DNA of 64,000 nucleotides, from positions 124,001 through 188,000 of the forward strand of contig NZ_JANHDJ010000005.1 of assembly GCF_024494645.1 (NCBI RefSeq), written 5' to 3'. The notes below the pieces were generated by a model. It was not told the DNA's origin, did no database searches, and was given only the letters and a program-made list of their open reading frames with translations. This stretch comes from Halohasta litorea (GTDB lineage: Archaea > Halobacteriota > Halobacteria > Halobacteriales > Haloferacaceae). Shown piece after piece: positions 13,048 through 40,364 of the stretch (its first letter is position 1; each line of letters opens with the position of its first letter). The translations under genes were made by a program, and so were the position numbers.

Positions 13048-13115
13048 ACCCGGATTACGTGTGAGACCGGAAAAACCCCGCCGTTCGAGCGGTCACTACC
13101 TCCCCGAACGTGGGG

Positions 13116-13123
13116 TTTATTAT
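13116..13123 (+). promoter_or_regulatory. TATA-like box of the lipoprotein gene
   Basis: TTTATTAT is centred 27 nt before the ATG at 13146, typical of a leaderless start. It supports that ATG over an in-frame ATG at 13110, which lies upstream of the box. Confidence 0.45.
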
Positions 13124-13145
13124 CCACGAACAACCAATCAGGATT

Positions 13146-14345
13146 ATGCAACCAACACGCCGTCGGTGCCTTGCGGTCGCCGGTGTTGGTATCGGCGTTG
13201 GGGTTGCAGGCTGTCTTTCATCGGGATCGAACATCACCTATCCGGAGCAGGCAGGTGGGTCGGACGGGTCCGAAAACTCGGGTGAGGGCGAGAGCCCCGG
13301 GGAGTCAGAAGAGCCATCCGGGGAACCGATCAATACGCGGCTCGCCGACGAGACAATGCGGGTGTACGACGAGCTCCGGTGGTTCGAGACCGAGTACGAT
13401 GACACGATGCAGGAATATCGGAGTCGGCTTCGGGACGTCTACACCGAGATAGAATCGTTACTGGAGACGATCGCCGACGAGGGACGGCTCGACGCACAGC
13501 CGCTCGAAGACGCCGAAACATTCGCGGCCGATGTGGCGAGTACGGTCACCGAGATTCCCGAACCACAGTTCCGGAACCATATTGATTTCGCGGCCGTCAA
13601 CGACGATAGGTTTCCCGAGGCCAAACGGTTCAGAGACCGCGAGGACTGGGACCGGGTCGAGGAGGAACTCGAATACGTCGCACGGATCTACGGCAACGCC
13701 TCGACAGTCAAAGCGACCGAAGAGCGCTACTCGCCCAATCCGATCGACAACCGACACTACGGCTGGCTCGGCGGGGACGAAGCCGGAACGATGTTCGAGA
13801 TCCGACACCTGAGCGACGACCCCGACCGACACGAGGATGCCGATCAGCGGCTTCCTGGACACGGTGTCTACGCCGTCTCGGATTCGAGCCGCGAGATCGA
13901 GTATCTCGATCGACCGATGGGTGGGAGACGGTACGACGTGCTGTCGTCGATGGACGACCGGTTCGCTCCGTTTGCAGAGCCGACCGACCGGCGCTATCGG
14001 CTCTACGTTCGGATTCACGATGTGGCCACCAGTGGCAGCATCGATCCAACCGAAACCGATCCGATACCGGTCTACGGCCAGCAGTACGAGGACCTCAGGG
14101 CCGCCGAAGCGGCTTTCGAGGCAGTCGTTGCCGACGAGACGTTCGACCTCGAAATCGAATCCGAAGTCCAGTGGGGCGACGAGTCCTGGAACCAGGTACT
14201 CTACACCAACGACGGACAACGGTTCTACAGCTACTTCTGTAGAGCAGATTCGTATCTGTTCGCGGTCGACCCTCTGCGGACACCATGGGAAGAACGTGAC
14301 GACGAACGGACCGAACTCCTCGACGGCACGTGGCTCAATCCATAA
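13146..14345 (+). CDS. Tat-exported lipoprotein of unknown function
   Basis: The 399-residue protein starts MQPTRRRCLAVAG, a twin-arginine signal. A lipobox GVAGC puts the lipidated cysteine at residue 23. A short Gly/Ser/Glu-rich linker follows (about residues 30-60), then a helical region (about 65-190) and a mixed alpha/beta C-terminal half. It is expected to sit on the outer face of the membrane, tethered by lipid. I recognise no enzymatic motif. The start is supported by both the Tat signal and the TATA-like box 27 nt upstream. The small membrane protein 15 bp downstream is probably cotranscribed. Confidence 0.82.
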   Translation: MQPTRRRCLAVAGVGIGVGVAGCLSSGSNITYPEQAGGSDGSENSGEGESPGESEEPSGEPINTRLADETMRVYDELRWFETEYDDTMQEYRSRLRDVYTEIESLLETIADEGRLDAQPLEDAETFAADVASTVTEIPEPQFRNHIDFAAVNDDRFPEAKRFRDREDWDRVEEELEYVARIYGNASTVKATEERYSPNPIDNRHYGWLGGDEAGTMFEIRHLSDDPDRHEDADQRLPGHGVYAVSDSSREIEYLDRPMGGRRYDVLSSMDDRFAPFAEPTDRRYRLYVRIHDVATSGSIDPTETDPIPVYGQQYEDLRAAEAAFEAVVADETFDLEIESEVQWGDESWNQVLYTNDGQRFYSYFCRADSYLFAVDPLRTPWEERDDERTELLDGTWLNP

Positions 14346-36224: not shown

Positions 36225-36824
36225 TTACTCGAATGCCTCGACGGCCTGTGCGTAGCGTTCGCTCGGTTCGTTCCAGTCGACGACCTCGAAGAAGGCGTCG
36301 ATGAACCCGCCGCGGTCGGGTCCGAACTGGTAGTAGTAGGAGTGTTCCCAGACGTCGAGTGCGAGAATCGGGTGACCGCCCCAGATCGCGCCCTGGTCGT
36401 GTTTGTCGACCACGACGTTCCGAAGCTGGTTCGAGAACGAATCGTAGACGAGCAGCGCCCAGCCACTGGCGTTTTTGGCTGCGGCTTCGAACTCGCCTTT
36501 CCAGGCCTCGTAGGAGCCGAAGTCCTCTTCAATTCTCTCGGCGAGGTCGCCGGACGGCTCGTCGCCGCCCTCGGGGGACATGTTCTGCCAGAACAGGTCG
36601 TGGAGAATGTGACCCGAGGAGTTGTGGGTCACGTTCCGAATGGCTCCGCCGCTGGAACTGAAGTCACCGTTCTCGCGGTTCTCGGCCAGCTCCTCTTCGG
36701 CCGAGTTCCAGCCGTTGACGTAGCCCTGATGGTGGGTGTCGTGGTGCCAGGTCAGGATCTGTTCGTCGATGTGCGGCTCAAGGGCGTCGTAGTCGTATGG
36801 AAGTGGATCTAGTTCGTAGCTCAT
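36225..36824 (-). CDS. sod: Superoxide dismutase (Mn/Fe family), first of two
   Basis: A 199-residue superoxide dismutase with all four metal ligands: His27 in TWHHDTHHQ, His75 in SGHILHDLFW, and the Asp and His of LALDVWEHSYYYQ. I start at ATG 36824, since the longer extension upstream is AT-rich and non-homologous. A TATA-like CTTTAA at about 36866-36871 predicts a short leader. A second SOD gene lies directly upstream. The two proteins differ in the metal-tuning region before the DVWEH motif, so their metal preference or expression may differ (inference). Confidence 0.93.
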   Translation of the reverse strand: MSYELDPLPYDYDALEPHIDEQILTWHHDTHHQGYVNGWNSAEEELAENRENGDFSSSGGAIRNVTHNSSGHILHDLFWQNMSPEGGDEPSGDLAERIEEDFGSYEAWKGEFEAAAKNASGWALLVYDSFSNQLRNVVVDKHDQGAIWGGHPILALDVWEHSYYYQFGPDRGGFIDAFFEVVDWNEPSERYAQAVEAFE

Positions 36825-36989
36825 GTGTAATACCTCTATTTCTATATTGTCTCGATTGCTGTTAAAGCTTGAGGAGTAGTTCGGTAACAATTGGCACATA
36901 AACACCGGCAAATAATGTATTTTGGTCGCAATCGAACAACTACGTAAGCAAAATAGTTTCCTCAATCGTGTCAGCCTGCCGGTTCGATC

Positions 36990-37598
36990 CTACTGGATCG
37001 ACCGGCCCTGACACTGCTCGAACCGCCGGGCGACGTCGTCCCAGTTGATGACCTCGAAGAAGTTCTCAACGTACTCCCCGCGGTTGTTCTCGTACTGGAG
37101 GTAATAGGCGTGTTCCCACACGTCACAAACGAGGATCGGCGTGGTAGCCTGCGGAGTCTGGTTCTGGTGGTTTTCGGCCGCCGCGATGAGCAGCTCGTCG
37201 CTGGCGGCATCGTGGCACAACAGCCCCCAGCCGGAGCCTTCGACGCCACCCGCGGCCGCCGAAAACTCCGATTTAAAGGCTTCAAACGAGCCGAAATCCT
37301 GCTCGATCTGATCGGCGAGATCGCCGCCGGGCTCGCCGCCACCGTCCGGATGCATATTCTCCCAGAAGATGGTATGGTTGACGTGACCCGACAGATGGAA
37401 CGCCAGTGCCCGCTTGACGCTCTTGATATCGCCGAAATCCTCCGAATCCCGCATCTCTTCGAGTCGGTCGCGGGCGGCGTTCGCGCCGTCGACGTAGCCC
37501 TGATGGTGTTTGTCGTGATGGAGTTCCATGATCCGTGAATCGATGTGCGGTTCGAGTGCGTCGTAGTCGTACGGGAGGTCTGGTAGTTCGTACGTCAT
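36990..37598 (-). CDS. sod: Superoxide dismutase (Mn/Fe family), second of two
   Basis: A 202-residue paralogue of the neighbouring SOD. Ligands are intact: His27 in ELHHDKHHQ, the His of SGHVNHTIFW, and Asp and His in VCDVWEHAYYLQ. It has the GGVEGSGWGLLCHD segment typical of Mn-type haloarchaeal enzymes, where the first copy has NASGWALLVYD. A TATA-like GTTTAG at about 37629-37634 fits a leaderless or near-leaderless transcript. The adjacent position suggests an old duplication, though the copies have diverged widely. Confidence 0.93.
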   Translation of the reverse strand: MTYELPDLPYDYDALEPHIDSRIMELHHDKHHQGYVDGANAARDRLEEMRDSEDFGDIKSVKRALAFHLSGHVNHTIFWENMHPDGGGEPGGDLADQIEQDFGSFEAFKSEFSAAAGGVEGSGWGLLCHDAASDELLIAAAENHQNQTPQATTPILVCDVWEHAYYLQYENNRGEYVENFFEVINWDDVARRFEQCQGRSIQ

Positions 37599-39094: not shown

Positions 39095-39514
39095 CTAACA
39101 GCCGCCTCTGTGGCCCTGGGTTTGATCGTCGTAGTGATCGTCCGCGACACCTCGATGATCATCAATACTCTCGCGATGGTCGTCAGTGATCTGTCGGCCG
39201 TCGTCACCGAACTCTCGGTGGTCGTCGATCCCCATATACTGGCCCATATCGTCGACGGTCAGTCCCATATGTGTCGCCATCTCCTCGACAGGCGGCCCCA
39301 TATGCCACCCCCGTGCGTCGACGGTGTCAGTACCCATGTGGGTGTCCATCCACGCAATCCGATCAGTCCGGTCGACGACCGGCTGGTCGGCGTCGACCGT
39401 CTCGTTGATCCCGACCGGGTCGCCACCGTGAGCGCTGACGACCGGCACCGCCAGTGCGACTCCGAGGATTGCGAGCGTTACGAGCAGCCAGCGTCCGACT
39501 GTGTTGGGTATCAT
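39095..39514 (-). CDS. Secreted Met/His/Asp-rich protein, possible metal binder
   Basis: A 139-residue protein with a Sec-type signal peptide (RWLLVTLAILGVALAVPVVS, cleavage after VSA). The mature part is dominated by two repeat types. The first is four [H/Y]MG units with spacing of roughly 12-15 residues (THMG, WHMG, THMG, QYMG). The second is four DDH[R/Y] units near the C-terminus (DDHRE, DDHRE, DDHRG, DDHYDD), and the end is HRGGC. Met, His and Asp clusters of this kind commonly bind copper or other metals. The upstream in-frame ATG at 39574 adds a non-hydrophobic leader and is less likely. The gene is followed 161 bp upstream by a membrane-anchored regulator with a Met-rich loop. Confidence 0.72.
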   Translation of the reverse strand: MIPNTVGRWLLVTLAILGVALAVPVVSAHGGDPVGINETVDADQPVVDRTDRIAWMDTHMGTDTVDARGWHMGPPVEEMATHMGLTVDDMGQYMGIDDHREFGDDGRQITDDHRESIDDHRGVADDHYDDQTQGHRGGC

Positions 39515-39674
39515 TGTGTGTCGCCTCAGATAGTCATACGAGGGTCGAATGGTTATCCCAATGGGTGTGAACACAGCGAGGAGATCCTCCGAGAACGTTT
39601 TTACTGGCTTCTAATCGTTTCCTTGTGATCGGACCGTTCGTCGCTGCCGAATTCGCCCGGTCGGTGGCTGAGAG

Positions 39675-40364
39675 CTATTGTCGGTTCGCTTGGAGGTCGT
39701 CGCTCGGGTAGACCCGGTAGGTTCGGCCCTGTCGTTCCCGGTACAGCAGTCCCCGGGATTCGAGATCGCTCACCGTCTGGCTCACCTTGCTCTTCGAGAA
39801 ATCGGCCCGGTCCCGGAGTTCGATCTGTGTGACACCCGGCGAGTCGATCACCGGTTCGAGTACGCGGCGTTCGTCCTCCGGAAGGAGATCCAGGACCCGT
39901 TTCTGTGGATGGGCCTCGGGATTGATCGACTCTGGCTCGGCTGTCGACTCGTCAGCTGCCGGGTCACCAGCCGCCGCAGTCGATGTGGACTCTGTTCCCT
40001 CCGGCCCTGTGTCGGCTGTGCTCGACTCGACGTCGACATCGGACGGCTGAGCGTCGGCAGTTGTCGATTCGTCGACTGCTGCTGTGGGTGGGGTGGCTGT
40101 GGGGTGTGAATCCGCTTCGCTCGACAGTTCCGCCCGGACCAACAGATAGCCTCCACCGATCACGGCCACAATCAGGAGCGTTCCGACGATCAGCCAGAGG
40201 GGGTCCGGTCCGTGCATCGATCCCATCGACGTATCCATCATCGGTCCCATTGCCCCATCGACGGCGCGACGCCGCTGGTAGGCCTGCCAACTGTAGCTCC
40301 CGCCAACGATGAGAACAACCCCGAGAAGGACGCCGACGGCTGTATCCGCCTGGCGACGGTTCAT
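39675..40364 (-). CDS. Membrane-anchored winged-helix regulator with Met-rich external loop
   Basis: The 229-residue protein has helix 1 (about residues 10-27), a short loop rich in Met and Gly (GAMGPMMDTSMGSMHGPD, 37-54), helix 2 (about 56-76), and a long Thr/Ser/Glu/Asp low-complexity linker (80-150). A winged helix-turn-helix follows (about 155-225), with TQIELRDRADFSKSKVSQTV and SRGLLYRERQGRTYRVYPS. With the wHTH inside, the Met-rich loop faces out, which fits a one-component sensor that binds a metal outside and controls genes inside. The neighbour on the same strand is the Met/His-rich secreted protein, a plausible target or partner (inference). Confidence 0.78.
   Translation of the reverse strand: MNRRQADTAVGVLLGVVLIVGGSYSWQAYQRRRAVDGAMGPMMDTSMGSMHGPDPLWLIVGTLLIVAVIGGGYLLVRAELSSEADSHPTATPPTAAVDESTTADAQPSDVDVESSTADTGPEGTESTSTAAAGDPAADESTAEPESINPEAHPQKRVLDLLPEDERRVLEPVIDSPGVTQIELRDRADFSKSKVSQTVSDLESRGLLYRERQGRTYRVYPSDDLQANRQ

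Follow-up and report, generated by a model that had tools for sequence, protein, structure and literature searches.

SilE and PcoE are sponges of the Gram-negative periplasm. They are exported, of small size and high Met and His content, with MxxH-type motifs and genes that keep company with metal efflux genes; pcoE is under the control of the two-component system CusRS (all as given in the available portion of PMC5008109). CusRS and CopRS, so far as the accessible accounts describe them, are bacterial envelope sensors that combine extracytoplasmic copper sensing with DNA binding inside the cell and have metal-handling partners. ToxR and CadC are single proteins with an extracytoplasmic sensor, a membrane anchor and a cytoplasmic winged helix-turn-helix (wHTH), which is N-terminal, of the OmpR type and placed before a single membrane helix. 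Haloarchaea have an Lrp-TRASH copper regulator, which we take to be VNG1179C. In the available text of PMC3600143 this regulator is printed as VNG1197C and its TRASH domain is said to get metal from metallochaperones; it and CopR/CopT of Sulfolobus are copper-responsive regulators found in the context of P1B ATPases and CopZ.

Two neighbouring genes of Halohasta litorea resemble each of these systems in part. Both are on the minus strand of the window (the whole stretch of 64,000 nucleotides that was analysed), and we refer to them as R, the upstream gene, and S. S is like SilE and PcoE in its small size, predicted export, Met and His content, MxxH-type motifs and company of metal efflux genes; a further point of likeness is its AlphaFold2 model, which contains short helices only, at low confidence. 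S is unlike them, as they are described in the accessible part of PMC5008109, in having a single C-terminal Cys, another motif spacing and a one-component wHTH partner. R would share with CusRS and CopRS the extracytoplasmic sensing of metal and the DNA binding inside, but it is a single polypeptide whose Met loop is short, and a Pfam search with R gave no match to a histidine kinase or receiver domain. R is archaeal and found near similar genes, as are the Lrp-TRASH regulator and CopR/CopT, but it is predicted to be membrane-bound and had no Lrp or TRASH match in the same search. R has the single-protein design of ToxR and CadC; in contrast to theirs, its wHTH is C-terminal and MarR/DUF7343-like, and it has two membrane helices and a loop of putative metal ligands instead of a folded sensor domain. 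The closest functional likeness would be a sponge of the SilE/PcoE kind, the members of which bind several Ag+ or Cu+ ions and fold when they do so, but driven by a one-part membrane regulator instead of a two-component system. The preliminary description of this locus knew of no system with this combination, and we too found no description of an R-S pair in the literature searched, nor of an archaeal protein that by itself senses extracellular metal directly. We think it probable that R and S together are a self-contained module for the response to extracellular metal, in which R is a Cu(I)/Ag(I) sensor that controls S.

S is a predicted exported protein of 139 amino acids (39098..39514, minus strand). 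It has one N-terminal hydrophobic segment (residues 5-31), and the predicted signal peptide ends near VSA-H. We prefer the ATG at 39514 to an upstream GTG as the start because relatives align from there and because stops interrupt many of the would-be N-terminal extensions; an extension to the GTG was rejected as coding and is read as a conserved leader. The mature part is acidic and rich in Met and His. Four [HY]MG motifs (at 59, 71, 82 and 93) and four DDH[RY] motifs, which form the tail (at 97, 111, 118 and 125), are present just as had been claimed; when the mature protein was shuffled 20,000 times, neither motif ever came to four copies. In an alignment of 17 sequences the DDH repeats lie outside the conserved part. 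The conserved core consists of MxxHM motifs, which in the window protein are WMDTHM and EMATHM, and the terminal Cys. Among 89 distinct full-length sequences there were 1.96 MxxHM motifs per protein, compared to 0.05 in shuffles; 86 had a Cys within the last three residues, 86 had exactly one Cys, and 82 had A-H near the end of the signal peptide, so that cleavage could expose an N-terminal His. S matched no family in Pfam or NCBIfam, and a search of solved structures gave nothing useful (best E 0.24).

R appears to be a winged-helix regulator whose helical hairpin anchors it in the membrane. It has 229 amino acids (39678..40364, minus strand, with the stop codon at 39675-39677), and its features were read from the open reading frame, Pfam, hydropathy, an AlphaFold2 model of low overall confidence (mean pLDDT only 61.7) and 118 distinct relatives. 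The order is helix, Met-rich loop (residues 37-52), helix, acidic linker and C-terminal DUF7343/MarR-type wHTH. Hydropathy places the hydrophobic stretches at about 6-26 and 51-81; in the model, helices 3-38 and 55-84 flank the loop, and residues 153-226 form a helix-turn-helix with a beta wing. The winged helix passes the cut-offs of DUF7343 (PF24034; 37.2 bits, cut-off 27.6) and MarR_2 (PF12802; 33.5 bits, cut-off 27), and a search of solved structures gave one weak MarR match. The loop, GAMGPMMDTSMGSMHG (codons 40209..40256, minus strand, computed from the open reading frame), is rich in Met, Gly and His. Its family consensus is MGxMMxxSMGx[VM]HGxxP, with M42 at 88%, M43 at 99%, M47 at 91%, H51 at 91%, G52 at 99% and P55 at 99%, counted over the sequences without a gap there. 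D7, Y73 and R77 are invariant or nearly so. The two helices, Met-rich loop and winged helix of the preliminary description are therefore borne out by hydropathy, Pfam and the model. That the loop lies outside, which it had also stated, is deduced: the DNA-binding C-terminus must be cytoplasmic, and Lys and Arg are fewer in the loop (1.22) than in the seven N-terminal residues (2.73; 98 sequences).

R and S occur together across the haloarchaea, as the preliminary description had suggested checking; it had named a lack of co-occurrence as grounds for refutation, and the outcome is clearly the opposite. We searched a class-wide sample of 391 haloarchaeal genomes, accepting S matches with E up to 1e-3 and R matches, found with the 87-residue N-terminal part, with E up to 1e-5. 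S was matched in 117 genomes and R in 134 (in 44 and 47 of the 86 genera, respectively); 111 genomes had both, 6 had S only, 23 had R only and 251 had neither (Fisher p about 9e-66, a value that overstates independence because the genomes are related). The order of the two genes is conserved as well. R was at most 3 kb from S in 107 of the 146 S matches, on the same strand in 103, and was upstream of S in every near case; among the other S matches, 17 had R within 20 kb, 21 had no R listed on the contig and one had R far away. These are direct observations, as are the gene structure and conservation described above. A search of 392 genomes sampled from the whole phylum gave 26 matches, every one of them inside the window's own taxonomic order. 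Plasmid pNG600 of Haloarcula marismortui carries R, labelled 'MarR family transcriptional regulator', and S, labelled 'hypothetical protein'. The available text on this plasmid reports five CopA homologues, unusual for an archaeal plasmid (PMC4187130). Near-identical R loci were found across genera (L195-L211 and others, in Halorubrum, Halobellus, Natrinema and Halosimplex), many of them on plasmids, pointing to recent horizontal spread.

The genome of the window has a second R-S pair and a third S. The second pair (R2-S2, on contig C34) has the same order, and its R is 67% identical to that of the window (R1). It is in an island with a heavy-metal P1B ATPase, and its neighbours encode an ArsP_1 permease with YHS domains, a DUF302 protein, a thioredoxin, an ArsR-like regulator and an HMA protein. 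The third S (S3; L014:8371-10665, on contig C23) has the promoter element described below upstream and is followed by genes for a Met-rich SHOCT membrane protein and a multicopper oxidase; no close R is beside it and no R-family match was found on its contig, so that S3 is possibly controlled in trans. Within the 64 kb of the window, ten profiles detected no copper gene save for a weak match to a DUF411-like profile (13110-14345, plus strand, E 3.8e-5). Two adjacent open reading frames on the minus strand (36225-36965 and 36990-37598) resemble Fe/Mn superoxide dismutases by eye.

Genes of metal-related families are enriched near R. We clustered 120 R loci, taken from 150 listed rows after exclusion of 24 near-identical and the 6 weakest ones, and compared them to 20 random control windows from 20 of the R-locus contigs. 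At least one of nine metal families was present at 91 of the 120 R loci and in 5 of the 20 controls (p about 2e-5); on the same 20 contigs only, 15 of 20 R loci had such a gene. All nine families were absent near 29 R loci. SHOCT proteins were the commonest neighbours (95/120 versus 0/20); others were the ArsP_1 permease family (59/120 versus 0/20), P1B ATPases (58/120 versus 3/20), DUF302 (51/120 versus 0/20) and halocyanin-like cupredoxins (42/120 versus 1/20). Lrp-TRASH genes were near 26 of the 120 loci, and for Lrp-TRASH, multicopper oxidase, DUF411, DUF326 and Usp the individual enrichment over controls was not significant. The neighbouring SHOCT proteins are small and consist of a Met/Gly-rich membrane hairpin and a SHOCT tail (for example, L076:8139-8495 and L147:12737-13108). 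Their hairpin weakly resembles that of R: the SHOCT profile matches R1 at E 1.1e-5, and a profile-profile comparison of the R hairpin and the SHOCT protein gave a probability of 44%.

A candidate promoter or operator element precedes S and is specific to S and to genomes that carry R. The stop codon of R and the likely ATG of S are 160 bp apart, and the sequence that precedes S is highly conserved, also where the proteins have diverged. A matrix from 84 distinct S upstream regions gave AAACGaTTAGAaCgcccTATAcACGTTCTCGAACGtTCTCCT, with the near-palindrome ACGTTC-TC-GAACGT as its core. The window copy (39581..39620, minus strand) has one mismatch to the pattern AAACGNTTAGA-N6-TANANACGKTCTCGRACGNTCTC, and its second half-site is degraded. 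Among the 120 R loci there were 118 core scores above 12, compared to 1 in one-strand shuffles, and the matrix found the 42-mer site at 108 and no site at 12. In the window's own genome there were exactly three pattern matches with up to 3 mismatches, one preceding each of S1 (the S of the window), S2 and S3. The degenerate pattern occurred 133 times in the 391 genomes, in 110 of them, and a reversed-pattern control had zero matches both there and in the own genome. R was encoded in 109 of the 110 element-bearing genomes (Fisher p about 6e-71). The element was 64-86 nt before S in 119 of the 133 matches, and at exactly 64 nt in 109; as the pattern was derived from S upstream regions, a place in front of S is in part a consequence of its origin, which does not hold for its rarity elsewhere or its match to the presence of R. 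Of the remaining 14 matches, 11 were at most 3 kb from R. The strict pattern was missing in 25 of the 134 genomes with R.

We propose that R binds this element. The element could instead be bound by a different regulator, with the linked R controlling something else or being a mere membrane component. This alternative draws on the R promoter, which has no element, and on one genome (G228) that has the element and no R match. It is very unlikely, we think, given that R is present in essentially every element-bearing genome and lies upstream in all cases where it is near S, that R is kept at the 29 loci without other scanned metal families, and that in the window R, S and the element have been retained together without such a neighbour. 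Autoregulation of R through the S element was also considered and was rejected: none of 121 regions upstream of R scored above threshold, the best score was hardly better than that of shuffles, and the R promoter, although conserved, is unlike that of S.

The element also leads to proteins that the S profile does not recognize. We could read 13 such proteins downstream of an element, and 10 of these bear a signal, are rich in His and Met and have a near-terminal Cys; the other 3 lack this Cys, and two of them are SHOCT membrane proteins. In the diverged analogues of S, His is found in place of Met, and in some lineages the protein is overwhelmingly His-rich. The element precedes a cupredoxin-like protein at L175:7625 and L177:7623 (strand-relative starts) and a SHOCT protein at L119:7702, which suggests a slightly larger regulon at these few loci.

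The substitution of His for Met speaks against the possibility that R senses oxidants. Oxidation of the Met-rich loop by reactive chlorine or oxygen species could be the signal, and S could be a sacrificial, Met-rich surface antioxidant. Met is sensitive to oxidation, according to the accessible part of PMC9302797, and thioredoxin-family genes were near 23 of the 120 R loci and none of the 20 controls. However, His is conserved in the R loop along with Met, S has His and a terminal Cys, and the neighbours of R are metal transporters and copper proteins. We consider oxidant sensing very unlikely and follow the reading of R as a metal sensor.

The module might be mainly for another metal (Ag, Zn, Ni, Cd or Hg) or for several, with the copper genes belonging to co-travelling metal islands on plasmids. 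Many of the P1B ATPases near R have CPC or CPH motifs, which we take to be Cu transport types, and some have SPC or CPG, pointing to other metals. The ArsR-type regulator in the C34 island, the lineages with overwhelmingly His-rich analogues, and the mobility of the islands, with near-identical copies in different genera, would also fit a metal other than copper. On the other side, Met-dominated loops such as that of R suit soft monovalent ions, and cupredoxins, multicopper oxidases and CopZ-like HMA proteins are recurrent neighbours. We regard this alternative as unlikely and prefer Cu(I) as the putative ligand, with Ag(I) possible. The families near R are also those induced by silver in Haloferax alexandrinus, a comparison made at the level of gene families. 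In that species the genes that rise under silver are copA, lrp and copZ, two plastocyanin-like genes, one for a SHOCT membrane protein and one for a permease of COG0701 (PMC10694973).

The position of the element suggests how S might be controlled. The palindrome comes immediately after a TATA-like AAACGnTTAGA, and archaeal repressors typically bind downstream of TATA, so that relief of repression is favoured. A second conserved stretch, CGAATTC...GAACGGTC (39632..39655, minus strand), is upstream of the element in the conservation line and is a possible additional binding box. R could thus be an activator of S that acts through this stretch or through the element, a variant compatible with the module proposed here. 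ToxR and CadC, which are also membrane-tethered, are activators, and a box upstream of the element, of the GAACG type, would suit an activator, but the strongest conserved palindrome is in the place typical of a repressor. We hold activation to be possible, though rather doubtful, and continue with repression. The promoter assignment itself is uncertain: the S promoter elements fit only loosely the published haloarchaeal consensus, given as TTWT and CGAAA in the available text of PMC4983044.

The leader between the element and the S start (39515-39580, minus strand) is conserved and of nearly constant length. It contains the linear motif TTCACACCCA (39562..39571, minus strand) followed by GATAAC and GAGG, an arrangement found in 83 of 100 distinct homologous upstream regions. 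A conserved RNA structure was rejected: the RNAalifold consensus energy of 37 diverged leaders was 0.0, no better than that of column shuffles (average -0.01). Despite its conservation, the leader seems to be neither coding nor folded.

The two-part metal response that had been proposed for this locus is well supported, at the level of sequence, by the co-occurrence and adjacency of R and S, the shared element and the observed enrichment for metal genes. We propose that R is a one-component regulator held in the membrane by its hairpin, and that its Met/His loop outside would bind soft metal ions, with Cu(I) the most likely ligand and Ag(I) a possible one. The winged helix in the cytoplasm would bind the near-palindrome of the S promoter. 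Metal at the loop would change the hairpin, the winged helix would alter its hold on the element, and S would be switched on, with derepression the likelier route and activation the less likely one. Exported S would then soak up metal through its MxxHM motifs, the tail rich in His and Met and the terminal Cys, and lower the metal signal that reaches R, a negative feedback. The topology of R and the sign of control are deduced parts of this scheme.

We believe, at slightly better than even odds, that R founds an archaeal family of membrane-tethered one-component metal sensors in which an outer Met/His loop directly gates an inner winged helix and the single dedicated target is a secreted sponge, the sequence of which may drift freely provided that the protein retains its ligand content and terminal Cys and the gene its promoter element. 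If this is true, the module would be a one-protein archaeal reader of external metal, with sensor, DNA site and effector in less than 1.3 kb and with R present in about a third (134/391) of the sampled haloarchaeal species, and it would give a likely role to genes that are now labelled only as encoding a MarR family regulator or a hypothetical protein.
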